The position numbers and the translations under genes were made by a program. From contig KV908417.1 of assembly GCA_002005505.1 (NCBI GenBank), positions 348,786-388,785 on the forward strand: 40,000 bases of DNA. Reading direction: 5' to 3'. How positions within the stretch are numbered: the first letter of the stretch is position 1; each line of letters opens with the position of its first letter. Origin of the DNA: Botryococcus braunii. Lineage: Eukaryota; Chlorophyta; Trebouxiophyceae. Shown in pieces: positions 32,700-38,347 of the stretch. The notes below the pieces were generated by a model that worked only from the letters and a program-made list of their open reading frames with translations, made no database searches and had not been told where the DNA came from.

Positions 32700-32935
32700 G
32701 CCGCACGATGCCGAGAAGGGGCCTGTACCGCTGAAAGGGACATGTATGTCTCGACACGCGGGAAGGGGTGGTCTAAGCTGCATGATGCGGAGAAGGGACC
32801 TGTTCCGCTGAAAAGGAGATGTACGTCTTGACATGCGGTAAGGCGTGGTCTTAGCCGCAGGAGGCCGACGAGGGGCCTGTACCGCTGGAAGGACATGTAC
32901 ATCTGGACATGCGGGAAGGGGTGGTCTAAGCCGCA
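32700..32935. repeat. 77-bp minisatellite containing the VPS26 stop-codon edge
   Basis: GCCGCACGATG, GCTGCATGATG, GCCGCAGGAGG and GCCGCAGGAGG start at 32700, 32777, 32854 and 32930. The last is the coding end of VPS26, and the upstream copies lie in its 3' flank. GTGGTCTAAGC (the stop codon in reverse) is preserved or nearly so in each copy. Confidence 0.92.
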
Positions 32936-35900: not shown

Positions 35901-38347
35901 CACAACCTGAACAGATGATGCTGCTTTATATGAAATAAGTATAGAATTTACAGCGCGCGAGCGTGCATGCGCACGCACGCACACACACACACACACACAC
36001 ACACACACACACACACACACACACACACACACACACACACACACACACACACACACACACACACACGCACGCATCGCTCTTGCTTACGATGCAGAACAAC
36101 CACAGGGCGATAGACTTTATAACACAAATGAAGCCGTTACAACTGTCAGAGTTCGAATCCGCGTCCTATCCCGCTTTAACTCATTCCCATTGCATGGTGA
36201 GCTTAAAAGCCTCGTACCTCACTCTGACCTGCAGCCCGCGGTACGACTCGTACTGCATTTCCACATTGGCAAACTCGAAGGGGAACGTGGTAGAGGCGCT
36301 TATCTCCCCCGGGGGTGCCAGCTCCCTCACTGCGAATCGAAACCCGCTCACCCGCATTAGCCCATTTGCTGCTAAATTTGCACTTTTAACAATTATTTTC
36401 TAAGAACAAAATGAAGTGCATTTCCCTTTTGAGATATTTATAGCAGATAGTCCTTGAGCACCCTCCACCTTACCCTCCACGCGTCTCTCTCACACTCTCT
36501 CTCCCTCCCTCTCTCCCTCTCTCCCTCCCTCCCTCCCCCTCCCCCCCTCCCCCTCCTCCTCTCTCTCTCTCTCTCTCTCTCTCTCTCTCTCTCTCTCTCT
36601 CTCTCTCTCTCTCTCTCTCTCTCTCTCTCTCTCTCTCTCTCTCTCTCCCCCCCCCCTCTCTCACTCTCACTCTCCTCTCTCTCTCTCTCTCTCTCTCTCT
36701 CTCTCTCTCTCTCTCTCTCTCTCTCTCTCTCTCTCTGTGTGTGTGTGTGTGTGTGTGTGTGTGTGTGTGTGTGTGTGTGTGTGTGTGTGTGTGTGTGTGT
36801 GTGTGTGTGTGTCCAGGAGGGGCACACTGAGGGGAACAAAATGGTGAGGGTGGCTCCTCTCCAAGGGTAGGAGGGGCACAGGAGGGGCACACCAAGGGGA
36901 ACAAAGCTGTGAGAGTGGCTCCTCTCCAAAGCCAGGAGGGGTACATCAAGGGAGACAAAGTCGTGAGCATGGCCCCTCTCCCGGGGCAGGAAGAGCACAC
37001 CAAGGGAGACAAAGTCGTGAGGCTGGCCCCTCTCCAAGGGCAGGAGGGGCACAGCAAGGAGGGGTTCAGGAGGGGCACACCAAGAGAGACAAAGTCGTGG
37101 GGATGGCCCCTCTCTGAGGCCAGCTCGATCTGCCCCAACAGCTGCACCTTGACTCCCTGGTGCTCTATCTTCTTTCCCGGCATCGGAGTCACCTTCACCT
37201 GGCCACCGCTTCAAGCAAGATATCAGAGCAAGGTGCTAGTTTCATATGTTTGTTCATCTTGACCATCGGAGTCACCTTCACCTGGCCACCGCTTCAAGAA
37301 AGATATCAGAACAAGGTGCTAGTTTCATATACTTGTTCATCTTGACCATCGGAGTCACTTTCACCTGGCGGCCGTTTCAAGAAAGATATCAGAGCAAGGT
37401 CCTAGATTCATATATTTGTTCATCTTGACCTTCGGAGTCACTTTCACCTGGCCACCGCTTCAAGAAAGATATCAGAGCAAGGTGCTAGATTCATATATTT
37501 GTTCATCTTGACCTTCGGAGTCACTTTCACATGGCCACCGCTTCAAGAAAGACATCAGAGCAAGGTGCTAGATTCATATATTTGTTCATCTTGACCTTCG
37601 GAGTCACTGTCACCTGGCAGCAGTTTCAAGCAAGATATCAGAGCACGGTGCTAGATTCATATGCTTCCTGGTATGAGAGCACATGCTAGATTCATGCGTT
37701 TCCTGATCCTGAACATCGGTGGACACCTTTACCTAGCCACCGCTGACGAAAGGCTTTCCGTATCCCCCCGTATCCACCTGCCACATTCCCCTCCCCAACT
37801 TCTTATCTTCTTCCAGCCTTTCCCACCTTCCCCCGTCTGCCCTTCCCAACTACTTCTCCCCCCCCCCTCTTAGCTCCCCTCCCCAGCTCCCCTCTTCCTT
37901 CCATCTGCCGTCCCTCCTTTCCTTTAACTCGATCTCTTTTCCGACCTGCCTGTGCCCCCCTCTTCTTTTTCCTTCAAATCAGTCTTTTCTGACCTGCCTG
38001 CCCTCCAATCTTTTCCTTCTAATCAATCTTTTCCCACCTTCCCCTCCGCCCCTCCCCATTCCTGGCTTCCCTCCCACTGCCATAGGCCGGCCACGCATCC
38101 CTCGAGTTTCACAATGTGCGGGGGATCAGAACAGGATCGGAAGGGATGTGGGAAGGCTAGGAAAGGGCTTGAAAATGCATCGGACCTCTCCCGTGATGCC
38201 ATCCTTGTTGGAGAAGAGTGGCAGCGTCTCTACCTCCCCACCTTTGACCTTGATGGTTGCTGTGCGGATGGGTTCGCCATCGCCCCTCCGAAACTCCACA
38301 TTGATGGCTGCCGACGGGACGATGCTCAGCCCTCCAAACAGGTTTTG
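32926..38347 (-). CDS. VPS26: VPS26, retromer core subunit, 7 exons (start exon missing)
   Basis: VPS26 is the arrestin-fold subunit of the retromer trimer (VPS26-VPS29-VPS35), which recycles cargo from endosomes. Exons: 38347-38186, 37198-37081, 36329-36218, 35418-35298, 34496-34395, 33972-33824 and 33130-32926 (TAG 32928-32926). Codon phases agree at all six junctions, giving 322 aa. Family blocks in order are [27 protein letters not shown]...[79 protein letters not shown], and [19 protein letters not shown] with KQQEI. The RGYG and RRRE features resemble plant rather than animal VPS26. The tail ends in an Ala/Pro repeat ([12 protein letters not shown]). The first listed exon starts after CTCTTGCAG at the position of about residue 2 of the family. 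A short start exon upstream is expected and was not found. The introns are mostly minisatellites made from exon edges. Confidence 0.95.
33126..33375. repeat. ~20-bp minisatellite at the VPS26 exon 7 acceptor
   Basis: About ten units of the type ACACAGCCCCTGCTTTCAC. ACAGCCTGCATGC at 33263-33275 exactly repeats the exon 7 splice junction at 33126-33138. Confidence 0.85.
33440..33825. repeat. Degenerate ~45-60-bp array in VPS26 intron 6
   Basis: Recurring GGGACCCACCGCAGxTCxAA and AATGGGGGATC phrases run up to the exon 6 donor, where CAGTTCAAACGGGGGATCGA starts at 33787. It includes the perfect inverted repeat TAATCTCTCA TAACGTG TGAGAGATTA (33748-33774). Confidence 0.7.
33948..34195. repeat. ~100-bp minisatellite (3 copies) at the VPS26 exon 6 acceptor
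   Basis: GCTTCAGxTTGATCCGCACC starts at 33954 (within exon 6), 34056 and 34154. The units include the first ~30 nt of exon 6, its AG, and the following CTTTGCATTTCAATTC segment. Copies two and three are intronic. Confidence 0.93.
34339..34395. repeat. 30-bp two-copy repeat beside the VPS26 exon 5 donor
   Basis: ATGAACAGATGCAGGAAG occurs at 34339 and 34369, the second ending 9 bp from the donor. Confidence 0.85.
34643..34940. repeat. CA tract facing a GT tract (inverted simple repeat)
   Basis: About 90 bp of CA-rich sequence (34643-34733) directly abuts about 205 bp of GT-rich sequence (34734-34940) with GTGC interruptions. The two are complementary, so one strand can fold back over about 90 bp. 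It lies in VPS26 intron 4. Confidence 0.95.
35040..35260. repeat. GA microsatellite
   Basis: About 70 uninterrupted GA units (35040-35181), then GA with GTGTGTGCG and G-rich interruptions. It lies in VPS26 intron 4, ending about 40 bp from the exon 4 donor. Confidence 0.97.
35403..35850. repeat. Degenerate ~70-80-bp array at the VPS26 exon 4 acceptor
   Basis: The exon edge CACCCGTAACAAGTACCT (35403-35420) recurs as CACCCGTGACAAGTACCT (35668) and CACCATGAGAAGCACCTGAA (35741) and CACCCCTGACAAGCAACC (35811), each with CAGTACTCCATxATGAGCA and GTACCATCTA phrases. Confidence 0.85.
35980..36066. repeat. AC microsatellite
   Basis: About 43 AC units, preceded by a GCGC/GTGCATGCGC alternating stretch. 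It lies in VPS26 intron 3. Confidence 0.97.
36483..36812. repeat. CT then GT compound microsatellite
   Basis: CT/CCCT-rich sequence (36483-36735, interrupted by a C run near 36647-36655) joins a GT tract (36736-36812). It lies in VPS26 intron 2. Confidence 0.97.
36816..37115. repeat. 54-bp minisatellite made of the VPS26 exon 2 donor edge
   Basis: GGAGGGGCACACCAAGG-type units start at 36816, 36881, 36935, 36989, 37043 and 37069, mostly at a 54-bp period. Each contains the reverse of the last ~27 nt of exon 2 plus the donor (GACTTTGTCTCTCTTG|GTG). Confidence 0.95.
37181..37760. repeat. 83-bp minisatellite made of the VPS26 exon 2 acceptor edge
   Basis: Units start at 37181, 37264, 37347, 37430, 37513 and 37596, an exact 83-bp period, with a decayed copy near 37714. 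Each carries the reverse of CCAG|GTGAAGGTGACTCCGA, the acceptor and first exon 2 bases, plus a roughly 60-bp intronic part. Confidence 0.97.
37761..38100. repeat. C/T-rich tract with short repeats in VPS26 intron 1
   Basis: Pyrimidine-rich plus strand (purine-rich in the transcript) with recurring TCTTTTCCGACCTGCCTG / TCTTTTCTGACCTGCCTG and CCTTCAAATCAGTC / CCTTCTAATCAATC phrases. Confidence 0.6.

Follow-up and report, generated by a model that had tools for sequence, protein, structure and literature searches.

This locus raises the question of why exons in a repeat-rich gene appear to begin and end inside tandem arrays. We analyzed a 40,000-nucleotide stretch of the green alga Botryococcus braunii (assembly GCA_002005505.1, contig KV908417.1, positions 348,786 to 388,785), hereafter called the window. 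An earlier note had described intronic minisatellites in its VPS26, PUR3 and CCT-domain genes as amplified copies of the neighboring exon edge, had ascribed them to a recurrent local process seeded at exon boundaries, and had known no standard name for them. A name does exist. Tandem repeats across exon-intron boundaries were termed mirages in the amphioxus Adh3 gene, and are described as well in the amphioxus globins BflGb6 and BflGb9, troponin C and PGBD5 (PMC3087553 and PMC3902484, cited from excerpts). In those excerpts, mirages are said to leave splicing undisturbed and to be variable in length, and are named as a route by which new introns could arise.

Our searches of open-licence papers turned up no algal case of a mirage and no paper that names Botryococcus together with minisatellites, and exon edges are not mentioned in the examined part of the three-race Botryococcus genome paper (PMC11286282). 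The same part gives a tandem-repeat content of 22% for race B, and judging by the model names this DNA is likely to be from that race (Showa). What is new here is the green-algal occurrence of mirages, measured against a null expectation.

Results

VPS26 exon edges recur in tandem arrays

The seven coding exons of VPS26, when spliced, translate to JGI protein P0001 (jgi/Botrbrau1 Bobra.0226s0025.1) minus its first methionine. Probes of 30 exonic plus 20 intronic bases were taken at 13 VPS26 junctions, at the VPS26 coding end, at 18 junctions of the CCT-domain gene and at two of PUR3, and each was aligned to the adjoining intron and set against 400 shuffles. Four of the 13 VPS26 junctions have copies of the splice site plus an exonic part that ranges from 18 bases to 30 or more. 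These are the acceptors of exons 2, 4 and 6 and the donor of exon 2, and at each of them the earlier description holds, with unit lengths from the probes and Tandem Repeats Finder (TRF) that match those first proposed where a length had been given (83 bp, 54 bp and about 100 bp; Table 1). The authentic edge closes the series in these arrays, so that the exon is itself the terminal copy, as had been claimed. The exon 2 acceptor array consists of five full or near-full decoy copies and one outer partial copy, and the degenerate copies of the exon 4 acceptor are located at 35517-35544, 35661-35685 and 35800-35822.

Two further VPS26 sites had been listed. At the coding end, the 77-bp array is present and its copies include coding sequence, but no splice site is involved. 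The array beside the exon 7 acceptor, with a 19-bp unit where about 20 bp had been given, reaches only five exonic nucleotides, with a 13-nucleotide match at 33263-33275, and was rejected as a mirage.

Table 1. Positions of the VPS26 coding exons and of the exon-edge arrays in the window.
Feature	Positions	Strand	Description	Basis
VPS26 coding exons	38186-38347, 37081-37198, 36218-36329, 35298-35418, 34395-34496, 33824-33972, 32926-33130 (stop)	-		match to P0001
VPS26 exon 2 acceptor mirage array	37178..37744	-	83-bp unit; acceptor and first 18 nucleotides of exon 2	TRF and probe
VPS26 exon 2 donor mirage array	36814..37120	-	54-bp unit; about 34 nucleotides of exon end (probe: at least 30) and donor	TRF and probe
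VPS26 exon 4 acceptor mirage array	35389..35841	-	71-bp unit, degenerate; 25 nucleotides of exon	TRF and probe
VPS26 exon 6 acceptor mirage array	33928..34203	-	102-bp unit; acceptor GGCAAG, about 35 nucleotides of exon 6 (probe: at least 30)	TRF and probe
VPS26 exon 7 acceptor-side intronic array	33140..33363	-	19-bp unit; only 5 exonic nucleotides	TRF and probe
VPS26 coding-end array	32680..32952	-	77-bp unit; 27 nucleotides of coding sequence including stop, and 3' flank	TRF and probe
CCT-domain gene exon 6 acceptor mirage array	20830..21202	+	unit of about 67 bp; exon 21172-21452	TRF and probe
PUR3 last-exon acceptor-side array	2701..2856	-	25-bp unit; exon 2610-2705, only 5 exonic nucleotides shared	TRF and probe
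PUR3 exon C donor	3575..3812	-	exon end 3788, GC donor; one junction copy beyond 46-bp array	

The copies within an array differ from one another, with copy-to-copy identities of 0.73 to 0.98. In the 83-bp array, the inner pair is 0.98 identical, the outermost copy has identities of 0.84-0.88 and the authentic edge of 0.84-0.93; the 54-bp donor array has no clear pattern of the kind ascribed to mirages, in which inner copies are homogenized and the ends of the cluster are not. Drift is seen in the exonic portion of the copies. When the assembly was searched with one copy from the 83-bp array and one from the 102-bp array, matches fell solely within their own arrays, and a dispersed repeat family is rejected for these two copies. 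Unit length also varies by site. The earlier proposals that the arrays are not one dispersed family, and that they reflect a local and recurring amplification, agree with these site-specific units and the two local copies.

The introns of VPS26 are far richer in repeats than those of the sample described below: depending on the offset, 0.33-0.56 of interior probes have copies, versus 0.09 in the sample. TRF also found large minisatellites 3' of the gene, at 30899-31586 (44 bp x 14) and 31900-32268 (61 bp x 6), and arrays in this region are therefore not bound to known exon edges.

Decoy splice sites

Many of the copies retain a splice site. In the exon 2 acceptor array, AG is present in four of the five regular copies (one has AT) and in the outer partial copy. 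Three of the four full decoys of the exon 2 donor array carry GT, and the fourth has AT. Intact decoys are thus present, in keeping with the earlier idea of a process that keeps making them. Use of any decoy acceptor with a mappable junction would lead to an in-frame stop. The exon 2 donor decoys would lengthen the exon by 80, 134, 188 or 253 bases, all shifting the frame and none introducing a stop. The JGI proteins agree with splicing at the terminal copies. A "first AG" rule would not account for such a choice, because the terminal acceptor is the most downstream AG of its series. Only that acceptor is backed by a complete exon and donor, which points to exon definition as the probable means by which the site is chosen.

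Exon edges are not duplication hotspots in an independent sample

To set VPS26 against a null expectation, we scored exon edges located by profile matches in chaperonin, proteasome and kinase genes and in one HSP70 gene, none of them picked for repeats. The profile rows used were 39 of 40 for PF00118, 20 of 20 for PF00227, 30 of 133 for PF00069 and 7 of 24 for PF00012. The 30 PF00069 rows comprised 22 of the 30 rows with loci and eight other rows, and five of the first 89 sample rows were dropped because they fell outside the sequence analyzed. Eight kinase matches in which a single open frame contains the whole domain or most of it were excluded. Kinase domains that are nearly whole in one open frame lie on contigs C294 (three matches), C23, C33 and C78; most other kinase matches cover only part of the domain, and the one-frame set forms an apparently intronless, partly clustered family. 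The resulting sample of the genome comprised 169 scored edges with 163 usable junction probes. For this test, probes were 30 bases long and copies were sought within 600 bases.

Interior intron probes had copies in 86 of 930 cases, probes covering the last 30 intronic bases (-30 to 0) in 8 of 163, and junction probes in 7 of 163. Within the exon the counts were 7/162 at bases 0-30, 2/164 at 15-45, 0/164 at 30-60 and 1/166 at 45-75. The ratio of junction to interior was 0.46 (95% interval 0.15-0.77, bootstrapped over 44 gene segments), and 0.1% of bootstraps reached 1 or more. An earlier run on 156 edges with other thresholds gave 5/145 junctions, with 0.07-0.10 at interior offsets. This ramp from the intron interior through the junction to the inner exon is what uniform placement followed by selection is expected to produce. 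For arrays that are placed uniformly except that no more than a single unit may be exonic, our own simple model predicts a ratio of about one over the copy number; arrays near the sample edges have a mean of 3.2 copies, which gives about 0.3.

Strict TRF arrays, measured around the 156 edges, gave the same picture. Coverage by these arrays was 0.065-0.089 within introns and dropped to 0.036 over the final 30 intronic bases; on the exonic side it was 0.019 for bases 1-15, 0.009 for bases 16-30 and 0.000 farther in. Three strict arrays crossed an edge, versus 2.5 expected from the density of array ends. Enrichment of arrays at junctions, the check on which the earlier note had staked its proposal, was thus not seen in this sample of the genome. 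Boundary seeding is rejected for the sample both by strict coverage and crossings and by the probe ratio, and VPS26 alone is in excess.

Edges in other genes

A clear independent case is a chaperonin gene on contig C74, in which as many as about 33 bases of an exon end, together with the donor at 100122 (minus strand), recur along the intron in five degenerate copies; a sixth match spans the intronic side. TRF listed no array within 40 bases of this edge, so the strict array counts given above are lower bounds.

The ten exons of the CCT-domain gene translate to JGI protein P0241 (Bobra.0226s0024.1) exactly. Its product is of the CONSTANS type (PF06203); the chaperonin CCT is a different protein. 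One of its 18 junctions has exonic copies. This is the exon 6 acceptor, where a unit of about 62 bp had been proposed; the array there has a unit of about 67 bp in five degenerate copies, three of them with AG, that carry 29-31 nucleotides of exon. At the donor of the same exon, an array with a 29-bp unit starts just within the donor of intron 6 (21455-21530) and thus stays three nucleotides short of the exon.

The last two exons of PUR3 were positioned by homology to Coccomyxa and Chlamydomonas proteins, and the 120 listed hits included no PUR3 protein from Botryococcus. The 25-bp array that had been assigned to the PUR3 exon 4 acceptor does not fit the description, since by inspection the acceptor itself lies outside the unit, and with only five exonic nucleotides it was rejected as a mirage. 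The exon C donor, absent from the earlier list, has a junction score of 37 versus a shuffle maximum of 22, with 25 nucleotides of exon in the copy, whose position (approximately 3575-3605) was read by eye. The corresponding exon-only probe is weak (19 versus a shuffle maximum of 23, p = 0.027). Two introns of the 40-kb window are of the GC-AG type, in PUR3 (CAG/GCAATG at 3787) and in the CCT-domain gene (CAG/GCAAAT at 21453).

Taken over all the sites first listed, six have copies of an exon edge (counting the coding end, which has no splice site), and VPS26 exon 7 and PUR3 exon 4 do not. To call the pattern window-wide was too strong, given the single positive junction of the CCT-domain gene. 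The span to which it had been assigned, 32926-38347, is that of the VPS26 exons alone.

Elsewhere in the window, positions 14000-14790 form a retroelement-like stretch with a direct repeat of about 140 bases at approximately 14320 and 14642; by eye, it carries what we take to be a copia-type end motif. At 16025-16117, a C/G run is flanked by the arms of an almost perfect inverted repeat, likewise seen by eye.

Discussion

With the structure of the arrays, their locality and the divergence of their copies established, and with no boundary excess in the sample, we consider it probable that they are mirage-type minisatellites, which is to say short tandem duplications that have expanded and that straddle an exon edge by chance. 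In a genome rich in tandem repeats, local duplications would arise anywhere in introns and their flanks. A duplication within an exon would break the protein and be removed by selection. One that straddles an edge would leave one full copy in continuity with the remaining exon; a correct mRNA could then still be made and the array could survive. The exonic content of surviving arrays would accordingly not exceed one unit, with the real exon as the terminal copy. The correct site would presumably be picked by exon definition, since no copy but the terminal one adjoins an intact exon that has a partner site at the opposite end. Transcripts spliced at decoys would do little harm or be degraded.

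Several points weigh against this explanation. The sample consists of conserved-domain exons, most of whose edges were inferred from profile matches, and strongly conserved exons may tolerate fewer duplications. Among the five inspected positive junctions from the 156-edge run, C74:99186 is misplaced, and the splice sites at C221:140210 and C26:247948 are doubtful. Moreover, arrays with hand-drawn limits cross VPS26 edges four times versus 1.28 expected (P = 0.013, uncorrected), and strict arrays cross them twice versus 0.7 expected, which leaves room for a local cause at VPS26. This gene was singled out after the fact because of its pattern, and we read it as a repeat-dense outlier, the tail of a distribution.

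The excess of crossings at VPS26 is also what a boundary-seeded process would produce, in which breaks or slippage begin preferentially at exon edges and make them duplication hotspots. By the 30-base probes, 5 of 13 VPS26 junctions have copies, near the gene's own interior rate, which likewise favors such a process. The independent sample, however, is in deficit, with an upper bound below parity and with strict coverage that falls toward the edge. An array of comparable structure also lies over the stop codon of VPS26, a position that has no splice site. We therefore regard seeding at boundaries as very unlikely. The retention of AG and GT by most exon 2 decoys could instead suggest that the decoys were selected to regulate VPS26 through alternative or unproductive splicing. 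However, the exonic portions of the copies have drifted, the decoy acceptors end in stops, and a similar array occurs in the unrelated chaperonin gene on C74, all of which makes such a function highly improbable. Finally, tandem repeats are difficult to assemble, but an assembly artefact should hardly yield copies that differ among themselves as these do, and we give that explanation almost no credence.

The arrays might also be remains of intron birth by tandem duplication, as in the Rogers model, in which introns are duplicated exon segments. Here VPS26 intron 5 (33973-34496 region) is the most suggestive case. The end of exon 5 resembles the end of the intron (CAAAGATGTCGTGGTCGGCAAG / caaaggtctgctggtgggcaag), 18 of 30 bases are alike between the intron start and the start of exon 6 (0 of 1056 mismatched cells scored as high), and the summed score of 39 was equaled by 1 of 1056 mismatched pairs. 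As a single joint alignment, however, the intron scores 26, a value equaled by 14 of 1056 mismatched pairs; shuffle tests gave only p = 0.038 and 0.028, and since intron 5 is the best of 33 introns its significance is about 3% after correction. Across those 33 introns, the intron start resembles the start of the next exon slightly more than permuted pairs do (0.283 versus 0.260, p = 0.045), but the intron end shows no resemblance to the previous exon end (p = 0.77), and joint alignments of matched and mismatched pairs both have a mean of 16.4. Intron birth by tandem duplication is thus not established as a general source, and we think it highly unlikely to be one. For intron 5 by itself we would entertain, as a doubtful but less remote proposal, that it is a young intron that arose when the region of exons 5 and 6 was duplicated in tandem, with the 102-bp array formed later from the same junction. 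Its donor would come from one copy and its acceptor from the next after the loss of roughly 15 bases, a detail that we put forward just as tentatively. Such an origin can hold together with chance duplication. If true, mirages, which this genome bears at a few per cent of its exon edges, would be a stage, still to be seen today, on the way from tandem duplication to intron gain.

The Botryococcus arrays resemble amphioxus mirages, as far as the excerpts describe these, in having a unit that spans the exon-intron boundary at donors as well as acceptors, in their decoy splice signals, in a unit length that depends on the locus (10-160 bp reported) and in an authentic edge that ends the series. 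Boundary-spanning units were found at both boundary types, namely at three acceptors and one donor in VPS26 and at one donor in the C74 gene. They differ from amphioxus mirages in belonging to a green alga rather than a cephalochordate, in having their rate set against a null, and in being known from the sequence of one assembly. Intron gain by tandem duplication in potato RdRp, described in an excerpt of PMC4974935, likewise involves a duplication that crosses an intron-exon boundary and could turn such an array into an intron; in Botryococcus, in contrast, the known exons and the reading frame are unchanged, and a hint of such an event is confined to VPS26 intron 5. Ordinary intronic minisatellites are arrays of the same kind and of local origin, and differ only in that the exon-edge unit happens to contain a splice site and an exon edge.

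The papers on mirages that we found concern amphioxus, and mirages are now seen as well in a green alga whose genome is 22% tandem repeats. They occur at 7 of 163 sampled junctions, approximately the rate that random duplication and selection would give, which suggests that no special machinery is needed and that mirages are likely to occur in other repeat-rich genomes. Botryococcus thus offers a system in which to ask how the spliceosome discriminates among near-identical sites and whether arrays of this kind contribute to intron gain.

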